From Bacteroidetes bacterium QS_3_64_15 (GTDB taxonomy: Bacteria > Bacteroidota > Rhodothermia > Rhodothermales > Salinibacteraceae), in the NCBI GenBank assembly GCA_003022565.1, contig PXTN01000023.1:1-40972 (forward strand): a stretch of 40,972 nucleotides of DNA, given 5' to 3'. This document shows, in pieces, positions 1,346-40,918 of the stretch. The translations under genes and the position numbers were made by a program. Each line of letters starts with the position of its first letter. Position 1 is the stretch's first letter. Below the pieces are notes generated by a model, which ran no database searches, had not been told where the DNA came from, and worked only from the letters and a program-made list of their open reading frames with translations.

Positions 1346-2833
1346 ATGGCCGAGTCTGCCTCTCATCGTCCGACCGTTGCCATCGCCGGGGCTACGGGTT
1401 CTGTGGGGACGGCCGTATGGGATGCCCTCTCGGCGGACTACGATCTCATTGGTTTGACTCACTCGCCGGTCCGGGCCCATGTCAACGCGACCTCAGCGTC
1501 CGGCGTAGAATGGCGACACTGCGATCTTTTCGATCGGTATGCGGTGCAAGGCGTACTCGCCAGGGCCGACTACGCCATCTATCTCGTCCACTCGATGCTG
1601 CCGTCCGCTCGGCTGTCGCAAGGCCAAGTGGCTGACCTCAATCTCCTGCAGGCAGACAATTTTGCCCGGGCGGCGGAAACGAAGGGGATCAAGCAGATTC
1701 TTTATCTCGGTGCGCTCGTGCCGGACGACACGCCGGACCTGCCGTTTTCCCTCCGCCAGCGGCTGGAGGTGGAGCAGGCCCTCGGATCCACCTCCGTGCC
1801 CCTCACGACGCTTCGGGCCGGTCTCATCGTGGGGGCGGGGGGCACGTGGCTGCGTCTGCTGCTGAATCTAGTGCGGCGGCTGCCCGTGATGGTGCTTCCC
1901 TCGTGGACCCAGGCTGAGACCCAGCCGATTGCCCGCCGCGACGTGGTGCGCGCCCTGAAGAAATGCCTTGGCAATCCGGCCACCTACGGAGCGGTGTACG
2001 ACATCGGGGGGCCGGACGTGATGAGTTACCACGAGGTGCTCCTACGCACGGCTCGCGTGTTGGGGTTGGAGCGACACACGACGACGGTGCCCATGGAATC
2101 GCCGCGTCTCTCCAAGCTTTGGGTGTGGCTGTTCGGCGGCGTGCCGTGGGCCCTCGTGAATCCCGTCGTCGATAGCCTTCGGTACCAGGCGCAGGTCCAG
2201 CTGAACGAGATGCAGGCGTGGCTGCAACGGGACGCGCAGTCGTTTGAGGACGCTGTGGACGCCTCTGTAGACGATCAAGGGCGACCCTTGCCCAATCCGC
2301 GCGATGAGCTCCGGCCCCGCGTGGATGCCGTCATTCGGGACCGGAGCGTGGCCCGGTCGGTGCAACGGATGCCGTGCCCGCCCGACTTTTCGGCGCGCGA
2401 CGTGGCAAATGAGTATCTGCGCTGGCTCCCGCGCTTCGGGTGGCCCTTGCTTCAGGTGCACGTGGAGCACGGGCGCGTGGCGCACTTCGAACTCCGACCG
2501 GTGGGCACCCTCCTTACGCTTCGCTTCGTCCCCGATCGGAGCCCCGAGGGGCGACAGCTCTTCCTCGTCACCGAGGGCCTGCTGGTGGGGGAGGGGGAAC
2601 GATCCGGACGACTCGAATTTCGCAAAATACTGGGCGGACGAGCCGTCCTGGCAGCCGTGCACGACTTTTCACCGCGCCTGCCCTGGTACGTCTACAGCAG
2701 CACACAGGCCCTCATCCATTTGGGAGTGATGTGGGGCTTCCGGCAGCACCTAGAGCACCTGACGCAGCAGCACACCGAGGCTGCGTCGGTCTCGTCGGCC
2801 CTCCGTGGCCCCTCACCCTGTAATTCACTTTGA
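1346..2833 (+). CDS. Atypical SDR NAD(P)-binding protein with C-terminal DUF2867 domain
   Basis: A 495-residue two-part protein. The N-terminal Rossmann domain (residues ~9-290) carries the dinucleotide motif GATGSVG at 15-21 and resembles the atypical, NmrA/complex-I-39-kDa-like short-chain dehydrogenases, in which the usual catalytic Tyr-Lys pair is often lost. The C-terminal part (~340-490; EYLRWLPRFGWPL and, near the end, LGVMWGFRQHLEHL) matches the DUF2867 type often fused to such SDRs. Substrate and reaction are unknown. The ATG at 1346 is chosen because the upstream part of the open frame runs through the tRNA and its terminator, and the Rossmann strand follows directly. The gene stands alone, 117 bp before the helicase. 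Confidence 0.8.
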   Translation: MAESASHRPTVAIAGATGSVGTAVWDALSADYDLIGLTHSPVRAHVNATSASGVEWRHCDLFDRYAVQGVLARADYAIYLVHSMLPSARLSQGQVADLNLLQADNFARAAETKGIKQILYLGALVPDDTPDLPFSLRQRLEVEQALGSTSVPLTTLRAGLIVGAGGTWLRLLLNLVRRLPVMVLPSWTQAETQPIARRDVVRALKKCLGNPATYGAVYDIGGPDVMSYHEVLLRTARVLGLERHTTTVPMESPRLSKLWVWLFGGVPWALVNPVVDSLRYQAQVQLNEMQAWLQRDAQSFEDAVDASVDDQGRPLPNPRDELRPRVDAVIRDRSVARSVQRMPCPPDFSARDVANEYLRWLPRFGWPLLQVHVEHGRVAHFELRPVGTLLTLRFVPDRSPEGRQLFLVTEGLLVGEGERSGRLEFRKILGGRAVLAAVHDFSPRLPWYVYSSTQALIHLGVMWGFRQHLEHLTQQHTEAASVSSALRGPSPCNSL

Positions 2834-2951
2834 GCCTGCTTAGCGGGACCTCTGGGCCTGCGACTCGTTCCATCCGCTCGCCGGACAAGTTCTGTACGCT
2901 TCATCTTCTGAATGACTCCCGCCCGGTTCGAATGGGCGGTTTGTCGAGTCG

Positions 2952-4217
2952 ATGCCGACCTATGCCGATGCCCCCTTCACCGAAGATCAGCAGGAGGCCT
3001 ACGATCGGGTCTACGACCGCCTCGCCCGCGGCGAGCGGTTCACGGGCCTGCGCGGGTACGCTGGCACGGGCAAGACGTACCTCGTGAGTCGCCTCGTGGA
3101 GCAGCTCCTGGACGAGGACTGCGCGGTGACCGTCTGCGCCCCCACCCACAAGGCCGTACAAGTGCTGAGCGAGGAGCTGGGCGATGCACCCGTGCAGATG
3201 CAAACGCTCCACTCATTTCTCGGCCTGCGCCTGAACCCCACGGAGGAGGGGGAATACGAGCTGGTGGCCGAGGAGGAGCGCGACTTCACCGAAGGCGTCG
3301 TGATCGTTGACGAGGCCTCCATGATCGGACGCGAGGAGTGGTCGCACATCGAGGACGCCCCCTTCTGGGTGCAGTGGCTCTTCGTGGGCGATCCGGCTCA
3401 GCTTCCGCCTGTGAACGAGGAGCCCTCGCCCGCGCTCGACGTACCCGGGCCTACGCTGGAGACGATTCACCGCCAAGCCGCCGATAATCCCATCCTGGAG
3501 CTGGCCACAAAGATCCGCACCGGGGCCGACGGGCGTTTCGGCAGCAAGTTCGAGGACGGGAAGGGCGTCGCCGTCACGCGCAACCGCGAGGAGTTTCTCG
3601 ACAGCGTCCTCCGCACGTTCGACACGGAGGCCTTCGCCGAGGACGCCACCCACGCCCGCATGCTCGCCTACCGCAACAAGACCGTCCGCCGCTACAACCG
3701 TGAGATCCGCGCCGAGCGCTACGGCGCCGACGCGGACCGATTCGTAGAGGGAGAGTGGCTGGTGGGCACCGAAACGTGGTTCCACGATGGCGTGCAGCGC
3801 CTCACCAACAGCGAGGAGGTGCGCGTCAAAAAGGCGACCGTCGACACATTTGAGGCCGACGATCAGAGCGAGTGGACGGTGTGGGAACTGAAGGTGCGCA
3901 CGCCGGGCCGCGGGCTCACGCGGACGGTCCACATATTGCACGAGGATGAGTTTGAGCGCTACGAAGAGCGGCTGGAGCGCCGCCGCGAAAAGGCCCAGGA
4001 TGATCCCTCGAAGTGGGACCGGTTTTTTGAGCTGCGGGAGCAGTTTGCGCGGGTCGACTACGCGTACGCCACGACGGTACACCGCGCACAGGGCTCCACT
4101 TACGACACGGTGTTCGTAGACCATCGGGACGTGCGGGTGTGCCGGGGCGACGAGCGGGACGCGCTCCTCTACGTGGCGGTCACGCGCCCGTCCCGCCGCC
4201 TGGCGCTGCTGGTGTAG
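2952..4217 (+). CDS. RecD/Dda-like ATP-dependent DNA helicase (SF1B)
   Basis: A 421-residue superfamily 1 helicase. The sequence shows Walker A GYAGTGKT at 35-42, motif Ia CAPTHKA, Walker B VIVDEAS at about 117-123, motif III GDPAQLPP at about 145, and C-terminal motif V/VI residues in TTVHRAQGSTYDTVFVD and YVAVTRP. The order and the short length fit a stand-alone RecD-like/Dda-type 5'-3' helicase rather than full RecD2 (~720 aa) or RecBCD RecD; no RecB or RecC is near. It probably acts in the cytoplasm on recombination or repair intermediates. The protein is strongly acidic. Its TAG stop (4215-4217) forms the first three bases of the repeat at 4215-4412, so the present C-terminus may have been set by insertion of that repeat. 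Confidence 0.85.
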   Translation: MPTYADAPFTEDQQEAYDRVYDRLARGERFTGLRGYAGTGKTYLVSRLVEQLLDEDCAVTVCAPTHKAVQVLSEELGDAPVQMQTLHSFLGLRLNPTEEGEYELVAEEERDFTEGVVIVDEASMIGREEWSHIEDAPFWVQWLFVGDPAQLPPVNEEPSPALDVPGPTLETIHRQAADNPILELATKIRTGADGRFGSKFEDGKGVAVTRNREEFLDSVLRTFDTEAFAEDATHARMLAYRNKTVRRYNREIRAERYGADADRFVEGEWLVGTETWFHDGVQRLTNSEEVRVKKATVDTFEADDQSEWTVWELKVRTPGRGLTRTVHILHEDEFERYEERLERRREKAQDDPSKWDRFFELREQFARVDYAYATTVHRAQGSTYDTVFVDHRDVRVCRGDERDALLYVAVTRPSRRLALLV

Positions 4218-4412
4218 TACTTCGTCAACCGTAATTTTCTAAACGAAGAGTAGGGCGTGCTGCGTAAGCCGGAGTGCAGTGTGTGAATAGTGATGCGTGA
4301 AGCGTGAGCCGTGAGACGCCGTTTCCTGTACGCATCACGTCTTCACGCATCACGGGAAGGGAAGTAATGGAAAGGATGCCTGTCCCCAAAATAAGCCTTG
4401 ACGCTGTAGCAG
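4215..4412 (+). repeat. ~200 bp direct repeat, copy 1
   Basis: It is homologous along its whole length to 5776-5989 in the same orientation. Both start TAGTACTTCGTCAACCGTAA and end in TGACGCTGTAG. The ends form a weak inverted repeat (TACTTCGTCAAC against TACAGCGTCAAG on the other strand). Inside is a palindromic block of GTGATGCGTGA followed by its complement. The complement is built from a 15 bp unit (TCTTCACGCATCACG type); this copy has one unit fewer than copy 2. No reading frame is conserved between copies, so it is a non-coding repeat, possibly a MITE. Confidence 0.85.
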
Positions 4413-4440
4413 ATCACTACCACGCGACCCGCACTCTCCC

Positions 4441-5679
4441 CTACGACTCCTGAAGGCGTTCAGCCGTGGCCTCCACCTCGTCCCACACGCGGAGCAGGTT
4501 CTCGCCAAGAATTTGCTGGATCTCATTCTCCGAGTAGTCCCGGCGGAGAAGTTCGGCGACGAGGTTGGGGTAGTCCGAGGCGTCCTGCAGGCCCTCCGGC
4601 AGCGCGAAGACGCCGTCGAAGTCCGAGCCCAGCCCCACGTGCTCCGTGCCCACGAGGTCCACGGCGTGATCGATGTGATCGGCCACGTCCGCCACGGTGC
4701 CAATCGGGTTTTCCTTGCGGATCTTTTCCTCGTACACGACGGCCTCCCGGGAGTCCTCGGCCCAGCCCATCGAGTCGATGTGCGCGTTCATGTCCTCGCG
4801 GATCGGGTCGTCCTGTTCTCGATACTCGTTTTGCAGGAACGATGAGCCGAACGTAATCATGACGATCCCACCCGTCTCCGCGATGCCGTCGATGAGCTCG
4901 TCGCTCACGTTGCGTTCCCAGCCGGGGGTGAAGTGACGGCACGACGAGTGCGACGCAATGACGGGGGCTTTGCTCTGCGCCATCGCATCCGTCGCGGTTG
5001 AGTCCGTCACGTGAGACACGTCGACCATGATGCCCAGCCGATTCATTTCGGCCACCACCTGTTCACCGAACGGACTCAGCCCGTTCCAGCGCGGTTCGCT
5101 GTCGTCGTAGGAGGAGTCGCCGATTCGGTTGTGCTCCCCGTGTGCGAGCGTGATGTAGCGGACGCCGCGGTCGTAGAAGTGCTCCACGTTGTCGAGGTCC
5201 CCGCCCAGACCGGCGCCGTTCTCCATCCCCATCGGGAGAGCGATGGCATCGGTGTCGGCAATCTGTCTCACGTCATCCGGGGACGTGGCGAGCGTGAAGT
5301 GGTCGGGGTGCTCCGTCGCGATCCGCTCCACGATGTCGATCAACGCGTTGGCCCGCTTCGTCGCATCGCTCGGGGTGGCCTGAAGGGAGGTGGGGATGTA
5401 GATGGACATAAACGGCGCGTCGAGACCGCCAACTCGGGCACGCGGATAGTCAAAGTCCCCGCCAACGGTCGAGTCGGCCGGGGTTTCGTAAAAGTCGTTC
5501 AGGCGATAGGGCAGGTCGATGTGCCCGTCGACCAGGAGTGCGGCCTGTGTGAGGCTGTCGGCCCGGGCGTCCACGTCCATCTGCGCGGTGGAGGAGCCGT
5601 TGGAGTCGGGCGACTGGCACCCGGCGAAAAGAACCATGAGGACGGCGCAGGTGAGGGCGAAGGGCGTCGACGAGGACAT
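4441..5679 (-). CDS. Membrane dipeptidase, peptidase family M19 (lipoprotein)
   Basis: A 412-residue renal-dipeptidase-type zinc hydrolase that cleaves dipeptides; family members also accept D-residues. The N-terminus MSSSTPFALTCAVLMVLFAGC is a lipoprotein signal with Cys21 as the likely lipidated residue, so the enzyme is probably exported and anchored in the envelope. Metal-site motifs are visible: GHIDLPY (His53, Asp55), ITLAHGEHNRIGD, VDVSHV, VIASHSSCRHF and HVGLGSDFDG. The ATG at 5679 is chosen because the signal peptide starts there; the open frame continues upstream only through repeat DNA. The gene lies between two ~200 bp direct repeats (4215-4412 and 5776-5989) and is convergent with the helicase, so homologous recombination could remove it as a unit. 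Confidence 0.93.
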   Translation of the reverse strand: MSSSTPFALTCAVLMVLFAGCQSPDSNGSSTAQMDVDARADSLTQAALLVDGHIDLPYRLNDFYETPADSTVGGDFDYPRARVGGLDAPFMSIYIPTSLQATPSDATKRANALIDIVERIATEHPDHFTLATSPDDVRQIADTDAIALPMGMENGAGLGGDLDNVEHFYDRGVRYITLAHGEHNRIGDSSYDDSEPRWNGLSPFGEQVVAEMNRLGIMVDVSHVTDSTATDAMAQSKAPVIASHSSCRHFTPGWERNVSDELIDGIAETGGIVMITFGSSFLQNEYREQDDPIREDMNAHIDSMGWAEDSREAVVYEEKIRKENPIGTVADVADHIDHAVDLVGTEHVGLGSDFDGVFALPEGLQDASDYPNLVAELLRRDYSENEIQQILGENLLRVWDEVEATAERLQES

Positions 5680-33587: not shown

Positions 33588-34076
33588 TCATTCGGTAGAC
33601 TCGTCAGCGATGCGTTCGAGCGTGTTGGCGAACGCGCGCAACTCCTCGATCACGTCGTCGCGAACGGCCGGGAGACGGCGGACGAGAGGGGCCATTTGCT
33701 CCGGGTCGAAGTCGACCGTGTACACGTTCCGGACGACGTGCCGAAAGCCCCTGTAGGATTCCAGTCGTCGACGCAGCTCTGTCGAAAGAACGGCCGGACG
33801 CGTGCTGGGGATCGAGCTGCCCATCTGATCCAGAAGGTCTTCGTGCCAGTGCGGGCTCTCGGGCATCGACTGGTCAACGTCTCGCGCGATCGTCTCGAAG
33901 ATGCGTTCCAGGCCCGCGTAAAAATCATGGACGTTCAGGGCGGCGGCGTCCACATAGTATTCGTCGCCGGTATCCCGGTATTGATCCCAGATGGCCCGGG
34001 CCCGTCCGGAAATCGCGGCGATGTCGTCGAGGTCTTGGCGGATACGGCCGGCGACGGCGCGATACGCAGCAGTCAT
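33588..34076 (-). CDS. HepT-like HEPN ribonuclease toxin
   Basis: A 162-residue all-helical protein of the HepT-like HEPN class. The diagnostic segment is SYRGFRHVVRNVYTVDFD (residues ~109-126), with the Arg/His pair of the HEPN RNase site. In characterised HepT-MntA modules HepT is an RNA-cleaving toxin, and MntA silences it by transferring AMP to a Tyr near this motif; a Tyr is present here. Its ATG overlaps the stop of the upstream nucleotidyltransferase by four bases (ATGA, 34073-34076), so the two are translationally coupled in the order antitoxin then toxin. The complete length suggests an active module. Confidence 0.82.
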   Translation of the reverse strand: MTAAYRAVAGRIRQDLDDIAAISGRARAIWDQYRDTGDEYYVDAAALNVHDFYAGLERIFETIARDVDQSMPESPHWHEDLLDQMGSSIPSTRPAVLSTELRRRLESYRGFRHVVRNVYTVDFDPEQMAPLVRRLPAVRDDVIEELRAFANTLERIADESTE

Positions 34077-34441
34077 AGCTCGATCCCGGTGTCTTGGATG
34101 GTCTCACGGAGGGAGGGATGGCAGGACTCCAGGCGGATCAGATCCACGGACCGCGTCTCGGAGACGGATTGCACGCGGGCGACGGCCCGGTAGTAGTCGA
34201 GGCCGGAGAGCCCCGTCACCGCAAGGTCGAGGTCGGAGTGCGGGCTCAGGCGCTCGTTCCGGGCCACCGATCCGAAGAGGACGACCCGCTCAGCTTCGAA
34301 GTCGGCGTGCAGGAGGGCTGCCGCCGCTCGGGCTTCCCGCCGCGCGGTTCGACGAGCCTCTTCCTGCCGCACGCGGGCCGTTGCGTCGCGGCGACGACGC
34401 GTCTCTCGGTATCGGGCGAGGGCTTCGTCGGAGAGGGGCAT
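34073..34441 (-). CDS. MntA-like nucleotidyltransferase antitoxin
   Basis: A 122-residue minimal nucleotidyltransferase. The catalytic pattern is LFGSVARNERLSPHSDLDLAV, with Gly57-Ser58 and Asp70/Asp72 binding Mg-ATP. A basic Arg-rich helix (~residues 10-38) precedes it. The expected job is to AMPylate and so neutralise the HepT toxin whose start overlaps its stop. The ATG at 34441 is chosen. The longer open frame up to 34783 is made of the out-of-frame remains of the DUF5615 gene and should not be read as a fusion. Confidence 0.85.
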   Translation of the reverse strand: MPLSDEALARYRETRRRRDATARVRQEEARRTARREARAAAALLHADFEAERVVLFGSVARNERLSPHSDLDLAVTGLSGLDYYRAVARVQSVSETRSVDLIRLESCHPSLRETIQDTGIEL

Positions 34442-34460
34442 GGGTCTCCGGGCGAACGGT

Positions 34461-34783
34461 TTACAGGAATTCGATGTGTCCACGCATTTCATCTGGCGAC
34501 AGCACGTCCGCAATGAGTGCCAGACCACGAACCATCTCCCCAACTCCACGGCTCTGCGGTGCATAAACAACACCGGGATGATCGGAGGTCTGGTCTGCCA
34601 GACGAAGGAAGTCGTCATCGTACGTGACGATGGTTCGTCCTCTTCGCGGGCAAACGCGAAATGCTCTTCGTCACTGGCGCCAAGCATTTCGGCGTCCACC
34701 AGCGTCAGCACGTCGATGCCCCGACTGTAGAGTCCTTGCGCAACGGCTCCAGGGATGTGCTCATCAAAGTAATATCGGACCAC
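34461..34783 (-). pseudogene. DUF5615 PIN-like toxin, single-base frameshift
   Basis: It starts at GTG 34783 with VRYYFDEHIPGAVAQGLYSRG and LTLVDAEMLGASDEEHFAFA, the usual DUF5615 N-terminus. Near 34640 the frame shifts by one base. The other frame continues GRTIVTYDDDFLRLAD, then HPGVVYAPQ, then VLSPDEMRGHIEFL, and ends at TAA 34463-34461, giving a normal 107-residue family length if one G is restored. All acidic active-site positions survive across the two frames, so the damage is recent or is a sequencing error. It begins two bases after the stop of the DUF433 gene, the standard partner arrangement. Confidence 0.85.
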
Positions 34784-34785
34784 GG

Positions 34786-35097
34786 CTACTGCTCCGTTTC
34801 CTGGAGCTTCCGCTGGAGCTTGGAGGGCGTTGTGCGCTTCAGCTCGTCAACGAAGGCCCGCTCGTCTCGAATGGACGCATCAATCTCCTCGCGGTGGGCA
34901 AAATAGTAGGCGAGGGCCGCGTAGATGTCGGCCAGTTCGAGGTCGTACTCCCCCGCAATCTCGTCCACCGACCAGCCGAGACGGTCGTGCCAGAGCGCGA
35001 TGTTCGGAACCGTGATCCGGTGGCCGGCGATGCGCGGCGTTCCGCCACACACGTCAGGCGTCTGTACGATTCGCTGATCGAGCGTCTTGATAGACAT
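34786..35097 (-). CDS. DUF433 antitoxin-like protein
   Basis: A 103-residue protein with the DUF433 winged-helix-like core: TPDVCGGTPRIAGHRITVPNI, then DEIAGEYDLELADIYAALAYYFAHREEID. DUF433 proteins are usually coded next to DUF5615 PIN-like nucleases and act as their antitoxin and probable operon repressor. Here the neighbouring toxin gene (34783-34461) is frameshifted, so this antitoxin may be orphaned. It probably leads a minus-strand operon through DUF5615, MntA and HepT. The following gap (35098-35366) is divergent from another nucleotidyltransferase gene and shows no further gene. Confidence 0.85.
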   Translation of the reverse strand: MSIKTLDQRIVQTPDVCGGTPRIAGHRITVPNIALWHDRLGWSVDEIAGEYDLELADIYAALAYYFAHREEIDASIRDERAFVDELKRTTPSKLQRKLQETEQ

Positions 35098-35366
35098 AGG
35101 AGGATGCGGCGTGAGGTAGGAGCAGTACGGCAGTCAACTCGAAAACGCTGAATCCGGCGGCGTCGTTTCCGGGTACGATGTGCGCAATTGTGAAGCGAAC
35201 GGACGCTCATCGCATGAGAAGCAGTCCACACGTCGGGAGGGGGATAGCGTTGGGGGTTTGCAGTCCGGCAGTCCTCTCGCTCAGAACGGAGAGTGAACGT
35301 TGACGGAGGCTGGACGTACATTGCATCCAAAATCTAAAATCCCGTGCCTACGAGCCGAGAGGCGTC

Positions 35367-35705
35367 ATGACTGCTCCCGACTCCGAGCATCGCGCTTCGT
35401 CTCCTGATCCCCGCCGCTCTTTGGACATGCTCCGGGCCCGGCTCCGTGCGGAACTGCCGTACCTGCGACGGCGATGGAAGATTGATCGGCTCGGCATCTT
35501 TGGGTCCTATGTCCGAGGCGAAGAGACGGGCGATAGTGATCTGGATCTTTTGGTGACGTTTACGGAAAAGCCTGATCTCTTCGACTACGTGGCGCTCGAG
35601 CGTCATCTGGAGGATCTCCTGGGACTCTCCGTGGATGTCGGGATGACCACGGAACTTCGTCCGTCGTTTCGAGATCGTGTCGAGCAAGACGTGGAGTACT
35701 TGTGA
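35367..35705 (+). CDS. MntA-like nucleotidyltransferase antitoxin (toxin partner truncated)
   Basis: A 112-residue minimal nucleotidyltransferase with FGSYVRGEETGDSDLDLLV (Gly46-Ser47, Asp58/Asp60) and the typical tail LEDLLGLSVDVGM. It belongs to a different MntA subgroup from the one at 34073-34441. A HepT/DUF86 frame begins at a GTG overlapping its stop (35702-35705, GTGA), the normal coupled order, but that toxin breaks off after about 30 residues. The antitoxin itself looks complete. The ATG at 35367 is the first in frame; the first ~20 residues are poorly conserved, so a later start is possible. Confidence 0.85.
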   Translation: MTAPDSEHRASSPDPRRSLDMLRARLRAELPYLRRRWKIDRLGIFGSYVRGEETGDSDLDLLVTFTEKPDLFDYVALERHLEDLLGLSVDVGMTTELRPSFRDRVEQDVEYL

Positions 35706-35791
35706 GTCGAAGCCAAGAAGAGTACCTCCGAGATCTTCTCCGGGCGATGGAAAAGGCCGAGCGATACGTGGAGGGGGTCGGGTCCGAGCAC
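35702..35791 (+). pseudogene. HepT/DUF86 toxin, truncated after about 30 residues
   Basis: It opens with GTG overlapping the stop of the MntA gene and encodes SRSQEEYLRDLLRAMEKAER followed by YVEGV, the standard HepT/DUF86 first helix. After about residue 28 the similarity ends abruptly. The frame continues to 36076, but with a composition unlike a HEPN protein, and the HEPN Arg-His motif is missing. The sequence after the break (35795-35874) is less GC-rich, which suggests an insertion or deletion joined foreign DNA here. Confidence 0.75.
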
Positions 35792-35874
35792 CGCAGACTC
35801 AAGCAGTACTGCGGAGCCGAACGGTCTCAATGCCAAAGTGCCGAGGCGCAACACAGCAACACAACCACATTCAG

Positions 35875-36018
35875 ATGTCGATTCGGGCCTTCCTGCAGCT
35901 CGAACTACACCGAGTGGAGACGGCGATCAGCTTCTACGAGTCGAAGACCGCAATCATTCGAGAAGCGATCCGGGCGTATTTGGCCGATCCGACCCACGTT
36001 CTGCCCTCAAGTACGTAA
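35875..36018 (+). pseudogene. Fragment of a ribbon-helix-helix antitoxin
   Basis: A 47-residue frame whose middle (LHRVETAISFYESKTAIIRE followed by AIRAYLADP) resembles the CopG/RHH helix pair. The N-terminal DNA-contacting strand is not recognisable, so this is probably a decayed gene rather than a full RHH protein (usually 70-90 aa with a partner toxin). The following 36019-36168 shows no gene I can identify. Confidence 0.4.
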
Positions 36019-36168
36019 GTCCTACCCCGTTTTCGGTGCGCCGGTTGCCAGGCCGCGCCGAAGGTCGTCGCGCTGAAGATCTCCGAGGCGGCCTGTCGGA
36101 TGATGGGGCCGGACCACGGAAAGAGAACTGCGCAGTGAACATCCGCAGATGGGGATGAGCAGGGGCGA

Positions 36169-36519
36169 TCAGGGGGACAGAAGATCGATCCCGTCTTCCT
36201 GCACCACAACGGTCCCCAAGTCCTCGGCTGCGATGGAAAGCGCACTGCGCACTTTCTCCATGTGCCGGTCCAAATGACTCGGCACGATGGGATGAACATC
36301 TATGATCACGACCCCGATCTCCCAAGAACTGACATCCTGCTGATAGACGAGATTGGTGTCGAGGGTCAGGAGAACCGCAAACGTTCCCTCGGCTGCCGCG
36401 AGAAGCTCGTCATCGTCGTAATCTGACCACCCCCGATACTGGGCTGTCACCACTACGCATTCCTCCGGGAAGCGTGGGCGAAGCCCATGGGGAATGTCGT
36501 GGTCGAGAAGGACCCTCAT
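36169..36519 (-). CDS. DUF5615 PIN-like toxin
   Basis: A 116-residue PIN-like nuclease family protein. The N-terminal acidic motif LLDHDIPHGL, WSDYDDDELLAAAE and LLTLDTNLVYQQ hold the conserved Asp residues expected for metal binding. Family members pair with DUF433 antitoxins and are predicted RNases. Its ATG overlaps the DUF433 stop by four bases (ATGA at 36516-36519), so translation is coupled. The C-terminal region (VHPIVPSHLDRHMEKVRSAL) is longer than in the frameshifted DUF5615 gene at 34461, and the two are not close relatives, so they are separate acquisitions and not a tandem duplication. Confidence 0.82.
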   Translation of the reverse strand: MRVLLDHDIPHGLRPRFPEECVVVTAQYRGWSDYDDDELLAAAEGTFAVLLTLDTNLVYQQDVSSWEIGVVIIDVHPIVPSHLDRHMEKVRSALSIAAEDLGTVVVQEDGIDLLSP

Positions 36520-36749
36520 GCCGACACGTGGCGGCCTCGTTCGTCCTGGTCGCTGAATTTCCGTCGGTAGACCTCGCGGACGAGGTCGGGGTCAATGTCG
36601 TACTGTTCGATAAAGTCCTCGACCGTGTATCCGTGATTGAGGTACTGGGAGAGGTAGGAGATCGGAATCCGCGTTCCCCGGAAGACGGGGGCCCCGCCGC
36701 GCTTCCCCAGCGAGACCTCAATGGGGTCGTTGTCGGAGAGGCTGTCCAT
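36516..36749 (-). CDS. DUF433 antitoxin
   Basis: A 77-residue DUF433 protein (EVSLGKRGGAPVFRGTRIPI, then YLNHGYTVEDFIEQYDIDPD). It is the coupled upstream partner of the DUF5615 toxin. The ATG at 36749 is chosen; the open frame allows ATG 36785, but the extra residues are not conserved in the family. Part of this gene is repeated as a relic at 38118-38205. The 201 bp between it and the PIN gene (36750-36950) has no gene that I can see and presumably carries the promoter. Confidence 0.85.
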   Translation of the reverse strand: MDSLSDNDPIEVSLGKRGGAPVFRGTRIPISYLSQYLNHGYTVEDFIEQYDIDPDLVREVYRRKFSDQDERGRHVSA

Positions 36750-36950
36750 GGCGGCGTTCGGTCGGTGGGAGGGAGGCCTACGCACGTCAATTTCTATACG
36801 ACAGTCGGCCTTACAGCGGCCTGGGAAACCTGTTTCGGAGACGGGCTACCCTGTATTCTTCAGGAGCTTCACCGGCGAACAGGGACCTACCCTCCGAAAC
36901 CGTCCGGTGGTCGGGCCTGCGATCCAGTGTCCGACCGAATTCAGCGAACG

Positions 36951-37523
36951 CTACAACTGACTGCGGCGCGTCTGAAGGAGCCGGGCTGTCTCTTCCAGCT
37001 GGCTACTTCGAAGGAGATCGAGGTACTCCGTACGGGTTTTCGAGGGCCGCGTTAAAGACCGGCGGTGCGCCGCCGCTACTTGGGCCACCGCCGTCGGAGC
37101 TCGCTCGAACAGACCGGAGATCAGCTCGTCCGGATCGGTGGCCTCGATGTCATGGGGAGCCAGCCTCGAGGTCGGAAAGTCCCGGGTGTTGAACGTAACA
37201 ATGTGACCGGCTCGAACGTGAATCGCGGCCGCCAGAACGTGACGGTCGCTGGCGTCGGGAAGGGACAGGTCGCGGATCCGGCCCTCAAATCCGGAGACCA
37301 AGGCTTCGGGCAGCGCCTCGTCCATCAGCTTCCGGATGCGGCGGAGGTTCCCCATCGTGATGTCCGGGTAGTCCGCGTGGACGTTATCCATCCACTCCTC
37401 ATGGATGCTCTCGGTCCAGTGTGCTCGAACAACCTCTCCGAGGGCCAGCCGCATCAAAAAGTCGCGCAGCTGAGCGGGATAAAGGACGTTTGCGTCATAG
37501 AGGACGACGGGCCGATCTTGCAT
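36951..37523 (-). CDS. PIN-domain toxin
   Basis: A 190-residue PIN nuclease. The conserved acidic residues are Asp10 in VVLYDANVLYP, Glu42/Glu43 in ESIHEEW, and Asp90/Asp93 in LPDASDRHVLAAA, with a further Asp in TFNTRDFP. The length fits the larger PIN subfamily (VapC-like with a C-terminal helical extension) found next to excisionase-type HTH antitoxins. It probably cleaves RNA. It lies 48 bp downstream of the HTH gene on the same strand, in the usual antitoxin-toxin order. Confidence 0.82.
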   Translation of the reverse strand: MQDRPVVLYDANVLYPAQLRDFLMRLALGEVVRAHWTESIHEEWMDNVHADYPDITMGNLRRIRKLMDEALPEALVSGFEGRIRDLSLPDASDRHVLAAAIHVRAGHIVTFNTRDFPTSRLAPHDIEATDPDELISGLFERAPTAVAQVAAAHRRSLTRPSKTRTEYLDLLRSSQLEETARLLQTRRSQL

Positions 37524-37571
37524 CGATCGTCGGCATCGGGGAGACGTGCAGACGAATTTCGAGCGGGGGCC

Positions 37572-38042
37572 TCACTCGTAGCCGAGCCCAAGCTCCTGGC
37601 TGAGCCTGGTCAGTTCCTGCATCGCCTCCTCCGACTGCCTACGGCGCCGGGCTTTGTACGCCAGCACGTCCCGTCGGTAGACGCGGTGATGAGAGCCGAC
37701 CTTGTGGGAAGGAATTTCCCCCTCCTTCAGGAGATCTGTGAGATGGGGGCGAGACACGTTCAACAGCTCGGCGGCCTCTCGCGTCGTAAGTTCCTCGTCG
37801 GCGTCGGCGATGCTGACGGTCCGGCCTTCTGCCAGATCCGAAAGGAGACTCAGCAGCGCCCCTGCTGCAGCGCCGGGAAGAGAAATGGTCACGCCGGGGG
37901 GTCCTTCGATCTGCAGCGTAACGGGCCCCATCTGCTCTTCGTCCCCGGTGCCGACCGGGACCTGCCGAAGCTGCTCCCGAAGGGCAGAGCGCTCCTCTTC
38001 GGACAGAGCGTCTGGATCGATCACGTGTTCGCTTGTGGGCAT
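37572..38042 (-). CDS. Excisionase-type HTH antitoxin of the PIN module
   Basis: A 156-residue protein with a C-terminal excisionase/MerR-like winged helix-turn-helix: LTTREAAELLNVSRPHLTDL, then LKEGEIPSHKVGSHHRVYRR (residues ~93-135). A ~90-residue acidic N-terminal part precedes it and may contact the toxin. It is probably both the antitoxin and the operon repressor for the PIN toxin 48 bp downstream. The ATG at 38042 (MPTSEHVIDPDALSE) is preferred over ATG 38117, because the sequence between them lacks conservation and runs towards the repeat-like DNA. Confidence 0.8.
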   Translation of the reverse strand: MPTSEHVIDPDALSEEERSALREQLRQVPVGTGDEEQMGPVTLQIEGPPGVTISLPGAAAGALLSLLSDLAEGRTVSIADADEELTTREAAELLNVSRPHLTDLLKEGEIPSHKVGSHHRVYRRDVLAYKARRRRQSEEAMQELTRLSQELGLGYE

Positions 38043-38117
38043 AGAGGAACGTTCGGGTGGAGAGTTGACGCGGACATCATCTGTAATAACTGAAACACCC
38101 AGTCGTTCCGATTCCAC

Positions 38118-38205: not shown

Positions 38206-38608
38206 TGAGACCGCGGACGGCCGACGACGGACCGCCGGTCAACCCTAAGAGAAGCCGTCTGCCGTCCACCGACCGCCGTCCGCAGTCCGCCACCTGCGGT
38301 CCCCCACGCTCCCACTTCCATACCTCCACACCTCTAAACGTCCACACGTAAACCCCACGCCCGCACGCGGCGCTGAGACGAGGTTGCTACCCATGCGGTT
38401 ACAAATCGTACCGGCGACGGACCGCGGGGGCGACCGGGCGGTTCTGGGTCGCGCTCGACCTGAAGGGCCGCAGTTCCCGGGTCCCCCCGCTCAGACCGCC
38501 GGAATCGGATCTTTTTCAACCAACGGATCACGAAAAGGCGTGTCGGTGAGGGCTTGGCACAGTTCCTGCGGCTCAAATGGGGCGCACATGCGAACGATGC
38601 ATTGCGCG
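38206..38608. other. Gene-free spacer
   Basis: 38206-38345 is low-complexity (GACGGCCGACGACGGACCGCC-like units, then CCTCCACACCTC runs). 38346-38608 shows no gene with a recognisable product on either strand; short frames there have no protein-like composition. It marks the boundary between the toxin-antitoxin island and the pilin region. Confidence 0.5.
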
Positions 38609-38684
38609 ACCGCGGAGACGGGTCTTCGGCTCGGAGGACGGTCTCCGCGGTGCGCGTTCCGCGAATCATTCTTCTAACAAGAAT
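38609..38684 (+). promoter_or_regulatory. Structured leader before the pilin-like gene
   Basis: An 11 bp perfect stem (38609-38619 with 38641-38651, ACCGCGGAGAC/GTCTCCGCGGT) encloses a second 6 bp stem (38622-38627 with 38634-38639). Sixteen bases later, a 6 bp hairpin ATTCTT-CTAAC-AAGAAT (38668-38684) ends 11 bases before the ATG at 38696. No U-run follows the large stem, so it is not a standard terminator. It may control translation or mRNA stability of the pilin-like gene. It does not match a riboswitch I recognise. Confidence 0.45.
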
Positions 38685-38695
38685 AACGTAGTCCT

Positions 38696-39136
38696 ATGGG
38701 ACAGCAGCAGCTTTTACTTCTCGTTTTGAGTACTGTCATCGTCGGCCTCGCCACCGTGGCTGGTATTCAAGCCTTTGATGAAGGACAGTCACAGGCAGCG
38801 AACGATGCACTGACACAGCGGGCCGTTTCGATTGCCTCCGACATCCAGGGCCAGATCAACAAGCCTTCTCAGCTCGGGGGACTTCCTGAACCAGGAGGTG
38901 ACTACAGTAGTACGTCTGCGACAGACGTTGCAAACGCGATCGGACTTGAGAGTGAGACAGACATTCAGGCGGATGGCGCTGGCGATAATGCCTCATGCGA
39001 AATATCCATTAATGGTAGTAGTGAACCGGCAGTTCAATGTGCTGGTGGCAACGCTGAAACGAGCGTCACTGCGACTGTGACAGGTACTACCACTGATGAC
39101 ATCTCAACGTCGTTTGGCAGCGTTGATTCCCTTTAA
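38696..39136 (+). CDS. Small pilin-like exported protein
   Basis: A 146-residue protein whose N-terminus MGQQQLLLLVLSTVIVGLAT resembles the hydrophobic helix of type IV pilins and pseudopilins, with only a one- or two-residue leader and no Glu5. An amphipathic helix (~30-55) and a small Ser/Thr/Gly/Asp-rich globular part (~60-146) with one Cys pair (Cys100, Cys115 region) follow. Codon use is less GC-rich than in the flanking genes. It is transcribed alone or at high level: a structured leader precedes it and a strong terminator follows. It is probably a secreted or surface filament subunit. The sequence is divergent, and it could also be a simple membrane-anchored protein. Confidence 0.6.
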   Translation: MGQQQLLLLVLSTVIVGLATVAGIQAFDEGQSQAANDALTQRAVSIASDIQGQINKPSQLGGLPEPGGDYSSTSATDVANAIGLESETDIQADGAGDNASCEISINGSSEPAVQCAGGNAETSVTATVTGTTTDDISTSFGSVDSL

Positions 39137-39171
39137 CCTCTTACCAGCGCGCTTTCCGCTATGGCGCTGAG

Positions 39172-39200
39172 GGGCCCACTTTCGAGTGGGTCCCTTTTTT
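39172..39200 (+). terminator. Rho-independent terminator of the pilin-like gene
   Basis: GGGCCCACT (39172-39180), loop TTCG, then AGTGGGTCCC (39185-39194) and six T residues (39195-39200). A strong UUCG-type tetraloop hairpin with a U-tract, 35 bases after the stop codon. Confidence 0.9.
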
Positions 39201-39278
39201 ATGGCTAAAAGCCTCGCTGTGCATCTACCGGGATCTCACGGAAGATAAAGGAGCGACACGAACCGAGAAGAACGTTCC

Positions 39279-40784
39279 GTGGTGGCACTTGAGCCTTTCG
39301 ACTGGACGGACGTAAGTGGGAGATCCTTTCTTTTCTGGCTGGTCGGAGCGTACGTTGTCCTCGTTCCCACGCTTTCCTTCCTTCCGTCTTTGCAACCGTT
39401 CAATGAGAAGCGGGCGATCCAGGTTGGCGTCCTCATCGCCGTTGCGGGCGGCCTACTTGCGATGCGTGCGGCGCGCCAGCGGTGGCTTACAACCGTTTGC
39501 AGGCTTCCTCTCGCTGCCCGATGGGGACTCGGCGGCGTGCTTGGGTTGGGCCTCCTGTCTTCTGCGCTGGCGCCAGCCCCGTTTTACGCGTTTCTCGAGG
39601 TAGGACATTTCGCTCTACTTTTCGTGGCGGCGGGACTCGTAGCCTCGGAGGTACGCCGGTCTCCAACATGGACGCAGCGGGCGATTCTGGGCATCGTGGT
39701 CGTGAGCGCGGGGCTCTACGCCGTCTACTTCGTAGTGGGATACGGCGCACATCTGGCCGTTTCGGACATCAAGCCCTGGCCCGAGGGAGGCACCAACTAC
39801 GCGAATATCCGGTTCTTCAATCATCACCAGACCTGGACGCTTCCGCTCCTTGCCGGGGTTGTTCTGAGCCTACCCAGACGGTGGCGAGTGGGGAAAGGGT
39901 TCGCCTTTGGGCTGGTTGCGCTCTGGTGGGCCTTGGTGTTCGCCTCGAGCGTCCGTGGCACCGTCGTGGCGATGGGCGTGGCTGCCATCGGGAGTGGGCT
40001 CCTCTTCCGGGGGCGGGCGAAGAAATGGCTTTTGATACAGGCCGCCGGGGTTCTTCTTGGACTCGGCCTGTATTATCTCCTCTTTTCCGCCGGTGAAGCG
40101 CCTCGGGCCGCTGATAAGTTTGGAGACCCGACCCAGTACTCTCGGCGGCTTCGCCACTGGCGCGTGTGCTTAGAAATGGCCTGGGCCCATCCCATTCTGG
40201 GGATCGGCCCCATGCATTTTGCCTGGTTTCCGTACCCATTCACCGAGCCCGCCAGTCCGCACAGTGCGCTCATGCGGGGGCTCGCGGAGTGGGGCGTGCC
40301 GTCCACGATTGCCATGGTCGGACTCACGGGATGGGGCGGCTGGCAGTGGATGAAGCAAGAACGGAAGACGGAGTCGACCCCGAACGGAGTGCCGAAGGCC
40401 GTGGGCGTAGCACTGGTGGCCTCCGTGCTGGCGGGGGCGGCCCACTCCATGGTCAGTGGACTGATTCTCGCCCCGTTGAGTCAGATGCTTCTCGTGCTCG
40501 TGGGCGGGTGGGCGTGGGGGCGATACCGGCACGCAGAACAGAGCACCGAGATCAACGCTTCCGTTCGATCCCACGTTCTGTTGGGCGCGTTGCTCTTGGG
40601 TTCAATGCTGATCGTAGGAGGTAGCCTCAAGGATCTCTCTACGATCGAGGAACGGCGCTCAGCATTCCGTGAGTCAACCGATCATCGCAACCGGCTCTCT
40701 CCACGATACTGGGCTCAGGGGTACATCGGGGTTCGAGATTCCTCAGTCATCGAGCGTGCCGGATCGGTAGGCGGTTCGGATTGA
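39279..40784 (+). CDS. O-antigen ligase / PglL-like membrane protein (Wzy_C family)
   Basis: A 501-residue membrane protein with about ten to twelve transmembrane segments (for example FLFWLVGAYVVLVPTLSFLP, ALLFVAAGLVASEV and LLGALLLGSMLIVGGSL). The large periplasmic-loop region carries Wzy_C/ligase landmarks: RFFNHHQTWTLPLLAG, and HPILGIGPMHFAWF followed by SPHSALMRGLAEWG. Such proteins transfer lipid-linked glycans onto lipid A (WaaL) or onto pilin (PglL/TfpO). The pilin-like gene lies 142 bp upstream and no other LPS genes are visible, so protein O-glycosylation is a reasonable but unproven role. The start is GTG at 39279. The stop TGA (40782-40784) lies in the first unit of the repeat at 40781. 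Confidence 0.75.
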   Translation: MVALEPFDWTDVSGRSFLFWLVGAYVVLVPTLSFLPSLQPFNEKRAIQVGVLIAVAGGLLAMRAARQRWLTTVCRLPLAARWGLGGVLGLGLLSSALAPAPFYAFLEVGHFALLFVAAGLVASEVRRSPTWTQRAILGIVVVSAGLYAVYFVVGYGAHLAVSDIKPWPEGGTNYANIRFFNHHQTWTLPLLAGVVLSLPRRWRVGKGFAFGLVALWWALVFASSVRGTVVAMGVAAIGSGLLFRGRAKKWLLIQAAGVLLGLGLYYLLFSAGEAPRAADKFGDPTQYSRRLRHWRVCLEMAWAHPILGIGPMHFAWFPYPFTEPASPHSALMRGLAEWGVPSTIAMVGLTGWGGWQWMKQERKTESTPNGVPKAVGVALVASVLAGAAHSMVSGLILAPLSQMLLVLVGGWAWGRYRHAEQSTEINASVRSHVLLGALLLGSMLIVGGSLKDLSTIEERRSAFRESTDHRNRLSPRYWAQGYIGVRDSSVIERAGSVGGSD

Positions 40785-40918
40785 ACGTTGGCGCGTTGTG
40801 CGTTGAACGTGGTACGTTGGACCGTTGAACGTGGTACGTTGAACGTTGAACGAGGGGGGACGCGTTGGGCGTTGAACGTGGCGCGTTGAAGGTTGAACGA
40901 GGGGGACGCGGGGATGCG
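40781..40918 (+). repeat. GTTGAACG / GACGCGGGG minisatellite
   Basis: Seven or more degenerate units of (C)GTTGAACGTGGTAC and GTTGGCGCGTT, followed by GGGGGACGCGGGGATGCGG. About 35 bp are nearly identical to the minus strand of 25732-25855. The first TTGA supplies the stop codon of the ligase gene. Nothing gene-like is visible from here to the window end. Confidence 0.8.

Follow-up and report, generated by a model that had tools for sequence, protein, structure and literature searches.

An apparently leaderless type IV pilin and a predicted pilin O-oligosaccharyltransferase at the head of a pilus operon in Salinibacteraceae and related bacteria

Introduction

What is a small exported protein with a pilin-like N-terminal helix doing beside a membrane protein of the O-antigen ligase family, and are the two genes partners or chance neighbours? 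The question is raised by the right end of contig PXTN01000023.1 of Bacteroidetes bacterium QS_3_64_15 (Salinibacteraceae), where a 146-residue open reading frame (ORF) is followed by a terminator, a 501-residue ORF and tandem repeats. The window analysed here is that complete contig (C23; 40,972 bp), part of a 2.6-Mb draft genome of 131 contigs that is 84% complete. An earlier note on this DNA had read the pair as a surface filament subunit and its dedicated O-glycosyltransferase. We conclude that the two genes stand first in a type IV pilus operon, and consider it highly probable that they encode a major type IV pilus subunit, leaderless, with a dedicated O-oligosaccharyltransferase as its neighbour.

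In the portions of the literature available to us, type IV pilins are recognized by a cleaved leader, Glu5 and a prepilin peptidase (PMC4471445), and leader cleavage by a dedicated prepilin peptidase is described as a conserved feature of type IV filaments (PMC4471445, PMC6668835). For Pseudomonas aeruginosa group I, the available parts of two papers describe TfpO, encoded directly downstream of pilA, as glycosylating the C-terminal Ser of the pilin (PMC11626772, PMC6385209).

Pilus operon

The window was compared with two sets of genomes, 60 relatives and 117 genomes of the same class; the nearest genomes are those of Salinibacter and Salinivenus. Except for the window's own, genomes of the larger set are at least 95% complete by filter, and some are single contigs; the counts of the pilin and of PilC kinds in this set are among the matches listed. 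From GTDB, the best 80 of 288 stretches confirmed by tblastn were used as named loci; they span Salinibacter, Balneolaceae, Neomarinimicrobiota, KSB1, Calditrichota and Melioribacteraceae. The features of the pair are:

38696..39136, plus strand: apparently leaderless major pilin, 146 aa, MGQQQLLLLVL..., ATG start (ORF; predicted pilin fold)
38699..38860, plus strand: predicted N-terminal helix (assembly/transmembrane), codons 2-55, directly from the initiator Met (DSSP of AlphaFold2 model)
39125..39133, plus strand: C-terminal Asp-Ser-Leu, with the last-but-one Ser as predicted acceptor (Ser linkage to the ligase)
39279..40784, plus strand: Wzy_C-family membrane protein, 501 aa, predicted pilin O-oligosaccharyltransferase, TfpO-like (Wzy_C, E 9.5e-13)
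40260..40262, plus strand: codon of invariant His328, in a PH motif after G-x-G-P-M, candidate catalytic His (15-homologue alignment)

Homologues of the small protein were found in 38 of the 60 relatives, where they often occur as several tandem copies, and the leaderless pilin family in 86 of the 117 class genomes. In relatives, the pilin gene is followed on the same strand by the ligase gene, where there is one, and then by genes for PilC, PilB, three N-anchored proteins (the minor pilins c9, c10 and c12), a PilT-like ATPase, PilM/N, PilO/P-like proteins and a secretin. PilC (PF00482, T2SSF; E 4.9e-30), PilB (PF00437, T2SSE; 2.6e-98) and the secretin (3.1e-32) were identified by profile matches, as was the PilT-like ATPase (PF00437); a PilN domain was matched (7.3e-6) in one of three members scanned, and the PilO/P-like assignment is based on position and size. 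Assembly ATPase, platform protein and secretin are encoded together with the pilins. A tblastn search of the 80 named loci, many of which end early, located PilC in 61 of them, PilB in 50, a PilT-like ATPase in 49 and a secretin in 23. A second contig of the source genome (C1; 7,233 bp) carries PilC (797-2173), PilB (2280-4667), c9, c10 and the start of c12, and by synteny should follow C23.

The earlier note had named lipopolysaccharide (LPS) or capsule genes beyond the window edge, with the pilin absent from most relatives, as the finding that would speak against a filament and its glycosyltransferase. By synteny, pilus genes follow there instead, and most relatives carry the pilin.

In Balneolales (loci L108, L110, L113, L128 and L163) a conserved protein of 166-169 residues, presumably resembling a cyclic-nucleotide-binding domain, is encoded between PilB and the PilT-like ATPase.

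Predicted pilin folds

A search of Pfam and NCBIfam with the small ORF gave no match at E<=0.1. The fold prediction that the earlier note had called for gave, from 86 sequences, an AlphaFold2 model with a mean predicted local distance difference test (pLDDT) score of 88.6, consisting of a single helix (residues 2-55) and a small four-strand beta sheet. When 205 of the top-ranked Foldseek chains were realigned by VIA-align, the four best were type IV pilins, namely PilX (Z 7.7, 92 residues aligned, 3.1 Å), PilV (6.9) and PilA of Haemophilus (5.9) and of Acinetobacter (5.7); the best unrelated chain had Z 5.5. A profile of the pilin family searched against PDB sequences found Thermus PilA5 as its best match (E 0.002); its weaker matches include Geobacter PilA and PilE1. 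From the model we predict a type IV pilin fold for the major subunit, with the long N-terminal helix and small beta sheet of that class.

The model of minor pilin c10 (pLDDT 82.6) likewise has a long helix (2-61) and a beta domain. Foldseek gave no match for it at E<=0.001, and pilins emerged only on realignment by VIA-align: EpsJ (Z 10.1), Thermus TTHA1219 (9.8) and XcpW (9.4) were best, the ten best entries were all GspJ/PilW-like minor pilins or pseudopilins, and the first unrelated entry had Z 5.0. The modelled c10 is thus GspJ/PilW-like.

The likeness of c10 to GspJ, together with weak GspH/GspG profile matches among the pilins, could point to a type II-like secretion apparatus or a DNA-uptake pseudopilus that builds no long surface pilus. 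We regard this as unlikely: the second, PilT-like ATPase and the PilM/N/O/P-like proteins form the pattern of a retractable type IVa pilus, and dedicated pilin glycosylation is known, from the parts of two papers available to us, in surface pili (PMC11626772, PMC6385209).

Absence of leader peptide and of Glu5

From their sequences, the pilins, major and minor, appear to be made without a leader; this, and the lack of a prepilin peptidase in most of the lineage, go beyond the earlier note. There is no room for a leader in the window, where only three open codons lie between the pilin start and the upstream in-frame stop, with no alternative start. Of 149 distinct MGQQQ-type ORFs, 143 have no other ATG, GTG or TTG between their start and the in-frame stop upstream, which lies a median of 4 open codons away. 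The codon 5' of GQQQL is ATG in 148 and GTG in one; the start was not required by the search pattern, some of the loci were gathered with a pattern including Met, and the homology-gathered loci are the fairer part. By this test the family lacks the cleaved leader of 6-26 residues of other type IV pilins. Alignments to the small protein in the 60 relatives start at query residue 1 in all but the weakest of the matches listed.

The N-terminal MGQQQ is invariant. The major pilin has no Glu5, as the earlier note had observed, and the first 26 residues of the window protein hold no acidic residue. The minor pilins likewise begin near the helix. Position 5 or 6 is acidic in 17 of 27 c9 and 12 of 24 c10 proteins, and positions 7-15 are so in none; Glu5 would fall at position 5 or 6 if the start codon lies near the cleavage point. 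Canonical N_methyl pilins were detected in only six of the 60 relatives. The control with canonical loci is thin (n=2): L097 has a six-residue leader before FTLVE, and L098 has several upstream starts. No leaderless type IV pilins, and no account of these pili, were found in the literature searched, which included no preprints and few subscription papers, so that this is weak evidence of absence.

Prepilin peptidase

Pfam Peptidase_A24 was detected above its cut-off in 4 of the 60 relatives and 12 of the 117 class genomes, and a lineage-tuned model, derived from ten peptidases of this lineage and its neighbours, found the same 12. Neither model detected a prepilin peptidase in the source genome, which is only 84% complete. 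Weak Pfam matches in G053 and G054 (E 0.003-0.006) were rejected, as the lineage model did not confirm them.

Where a peptidase is found, it mostly goes with a second kind of PilC. Among the matches listed, the PilC behind leaderless pilins scores below 80 bits, and a PilC above 90 bits was found in 14 genomes; 11 of these 14 have a peptidase, against 1 of the 103 others. Of the 13 pilin-bearing genomes with the second PilC, 11 have the peptidase, as against none of the 73 without that PilC (Fisher p 3e-12, among the matches listed). In G035, G038 and G046, peptidase, N_methyl pilins and second PilC lie on one contig. A canonical type II/IV system (PilC above 90 bits and peptidase) stands beside the leaderless one in G032, G035, G038, G046, G070, G072, G084, G085, G091, G117 and G127.

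The pilins might be processed after all, by an undetectably divergent prepilin peptidase or by an unrelated peptidase acting on a Met-Gly leader. Gly2 is invariant in 86 sequences, and Gly at -1 is a hallmark of prepilin cleavage in the available part of PMC4471445; a Met-Gly leader would make Gln the first mature residue. We consider such processing quite unlikely, since no peptidase was detected by Pfam or the lineage model in the 73 genomes without the canonical system, several of them single contigs, there is no basic leader, and many c9 and c10 minor pilins start with residues other than Met-Gly. A Met-Gly start could also be acted on by Met aminopeptidase alone. We infer that the N-terminus goes unprocessed in the cell.

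Ligase gene and its linkage to the pilin

All 15 aligned homologues of the 501-residue protein match Wzy_C. R226-G227, the G-x-G-P-M motif and H328 are invariant in this alignment, so that the family has the conserved His of TfpO-type enzymes. By analogy with PglS, whose H324A variant is a precedent in the part of PMC6385209 available to us, His328 may be catalytic.

The ligase gene is strictly linked to the pilin gene. The class genomes were searched with the 15-sequence alignment (E<=1e-20), and adjacency was judged by eye from coordinates. The ligase was found in 21 of the 117 genomes and, among the matches listed, lies in all 21 about 0.5 kb or less downstream of a leaderless pilin, both genes being on one strand; the synteny check proposed in the earlier note thus came out in favour of a pair. 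In the set of 60 relatives, 12 genomes have the ligase and in 10 of these it is adjacent to the pilin; in G026 a contig end truncates the ligase gene, which is followed by PilC. The ligase stands between pilin and PilC in six of the six named loci that have it; the pilin-PilC gap of L113 holds no ligase gene. It is absent from 65 of the 86 pilin-bearing genomes (among the matches listed), so it is the ligase that depends on the pilin.

Wzy_C is common to WaaL, Wzy and O-oligosaccharyltransferases, and it is the only domain recognized in this protein. WaaL joins O-antigen to the lipid A core, and its gene commonly lies in an LPS gene cluster. An ordinary WaaL ligase or Wzy polymerase for LPS or exopolysaccharide, lying beside a pilin by chance, would carry it too, and no PDB sequence match tells these enzyme kinds apart: a search with the ligase or its alignment gave nothing of note. 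This explanation is nonetheless very unlikely. The gene stands directly behind the pilin in every ligase-bearing genome among the matches listed and in every such named locus, its presence tracks the last residues of the pilin (below), and most pilin genomes do without it; a chance neighbourhood of WaaL was rejected on the synteny. As the earlier note had remarked, no LPS genes are recognized beside the ligase in the window, although the window is a whole contig ending 188 bases after that gene; none were recognized among the annotated neighbours in relatives either.

C-terminal serine as predicted glycan acceptor

Presence of the ligase is tied to a C-terminal Ser on its cognate pilin. The last residue is Ser in 17 of 27 ligase-adjacent pilins versus 13 of 86 others, and Ser occurs within the last three residues in 24 of 27 versus 20 of 86. 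Taking the first pilin of each genome, the latter rule holds in 21 of 21 with ligase versus 6 of 43 without (p 7e-12), the ligase-negative set being 43 of 72 loci after omission of families in which no member has the ligase; loci L198-L246 (49) were picked by hand from the ligase-negative genomes, 65 in all. The contrast persists when stratified by family (p 3e-9), and elsewhere in the last 30 residues no three-residue window gave a comparable one. Within genomes, terminal Ser was found in 11 of 12 pilins beside the ligase versus 1 of 16 elsewhere (p 6e-6), and the looser last-three rule gave 12 of 12 versus 9 of 16 (p 0.01). This comparison covers the 10 of 21 ligase-bearing genomes where another pilin is available and excludes a short fragment of G004 (L254).

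The earlier note had offered the Ser/Thr-rich body of the protein as acceptor. That reading was rejected and the body is not distinctive, since Ser/Thr content is alike with and without the ligase (0.233 in ligase-adjacent pilins, 0.225 in others). The acceptor is likely the C-terminal Ser instead, and very likely the ligase attaches sugar to the pilin tail.

On the chromosome of G011 (L041, G011:C1, 10389-10730) the ligase gene has decayed, leaving a remnant of about 113 residues, and a second replicon of 39.8 kb (L043, G011:C2, 9555-11736) carries an intact pilin-ligase pair; the pilin by the remnant ends GFD and that of the intact pair SASV. A similar replicon in G003 (C2, 35.5 kb) has two pilins and no ligase.

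Proposed mechanism and likeness to known systems

In the mechanism we propose, translation of the pilin would start within about three residues of the usual cleavage point of other pilins, so that the nascent protein would insert its N-terminal helix in near-mature form. PilB and PilC would polymerize this membrane-inserted pilin without a prepilin peptidase, and the minor pilins of the operon would obey the same leaderless rule. The periplasm-facing Wzy_C ligase would move a lipid-linked glycan onto a Ser hydroxyl at or near the pilin C-terminus, before or during assembly, as with TfpO in P. aeruginosa. The terminator between the genes would keep the structural subunit more abundant than the enzyme.

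The pair resembles PilA-TfpO (PilO) of P. aeruginosa, as described in the available parts of the papers cited above, in having a ligase gene directly 3' of the major pilin and a C-terminal Ser as acceptor (predicted here), and in being present in some strains or species only. It differs in that the pilin here has neither leader nor Glu5, the phylum is another, the pair heads a complete pilus operon, Ser is last but one or two in some members, and this ligase family aligns by sequence to no solved structure. With type IVa machinery (PilB, PilC, PilT, PilMNOP, PilQ) the system shares the kinds of components in one operon and, in the models, the pilin and GspJ/PilW folds, whereas the leaderless major and minor pilins and the lack of a prepilin peptidase and of an N_methyl motif set it apart. 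In the part of PMC4471445 available to us, archaeal type IV pilins often lack Glu5 as well but have a leader and a dedicated peptidase; a very weak profile similarity to DUF7263, and Pilin_N in 3 of 86 members, are the link to them. Because machinery and fold fit and leader, Glu5 and peptidase do not, we call the system a variant type IV pilus carrying a TfpO-like glycosylation module.

Several observations weigh against a leaderless pilus subunit with a dedicated glycosyltransferase. For the major pilin, Foldseek found no match at E<=0.001, and the best VIA-align Z of 7.7 is in the range that the tool calls middling. The placement of C1 after C23 is based on synteny, with no sequence join. 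The N-terminus could be out of register by as many as three residues, since residue 2 of the minor pilin falls on mature residue 1 in the structural alignment and residue 9 of the major pilin on mature residue 6 in the sequence profile. G041, one of the 12 relatives with the ligase, shows no pilin on the 5.7-kb contig that carries this gene. The window pilin itself ends in Leu, with Ser last but one. The cut at three residues was set after inspecting 17 tails (on previously unseen tails the rule holds in 9 of 11 versus 11 of 50), and the Ser test groups related sequences. Finally, in outlying phyla a prepilin peptidase is present in 12 of 26 genomes with this pilin; the clean absence therefore holds for the class and not for all carriers of the family.

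The surface filament subunit with its dedicated O-glycosyltransferase that the earlier note proposed is supported by the invariable adjacency among the matches listed, the pilus operon that follows and the C-terminal Ser signal. Gene linkage and operon thus bear it out, and the filament and the glycan are still what we infer.

The leaderless pili of Rhodothermia/Balneolia, Neomarinimicrobiota, KSB1, Calditrichota and Melioribacteraceae probably form a class in which the start codon replaces the peptidase, and in which ligase and Ser were gained and lost together several times. If this class builds a filament, then N-terminal processing would not be intrinsic to type IV filament assembly. A whole lineage with pili of this kind would show that the leader cleavage step, though treated as universal, is dispensable, which would open the question of what processing and Glu5 serve for. 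The motif MGQQQLLL offers an annotation signature for several hundred unannotated pilins that have no Pfam or NCBIfam model, and the pairs offer new pilin-oligosaccharyltransferase combinations with a short C-terminal acceptor. As the hosts include cultured, named organisms (Salinibacter, Salinivenus, Fodinibius, Gracilimonas), both claims are testable.

Untranslated regions and neighbouring sequence

The pilin-like gene, hairpin leader, terminator and ligase-family neighbour described in the earlier note are all present. The remaining features of the window end are:

38604..38657 (about), plus strand: GC-rich hairpin in the pilin 5' untranslated region (folding energy, conservation)
39169..39196, plus strand: intrinsic terminator separating the pilin and ligase genes, a 12-bp stem followed by a T run (fold z -4.6)
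40783..40910, plus strand: tandem repeats, GTTGAACG-like, at the contig end (Tandem Repeats Finder)

Positions 38575-38695 fold with a minimum free energy of -52.6 kcal/mol (z -3.6; none of 200 shuffles as good), consistent with the structured leader noted before. The main hairpin is conserved in five Salinibacter-group genomes, with compensatory change in 2 of 35 pairs and several one-sided changes; its sequence is not kept in the two more distant sequences aligned and the hairpin is therefore lineage-restricted. It may serve as a leader or in mRNA stability. An Rfam match near the leader, mir-341, was dismissed as a chance match far under its cut-off.

The stem and T run agree with the strong terminator of the earlier description, and T runs 3' of the pilin were found in 4 of 14 relatives scanned. 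This element would keep pilin mRNA in excess.

The tandem repeats at the contig end are the probable reason for the assembly break before pilC; among the compared loci, the GTTGAACG-like pattern was not found outside this contig's own. Upstream of the pilin (34073-38117) lies a string of small toxin-antitoxin-like genes, including a PIN_3 protein with an HTH_17 partner (36951-38117, minus strand), a DUF433 gene and two nucleotidyltransferase-domain genes.

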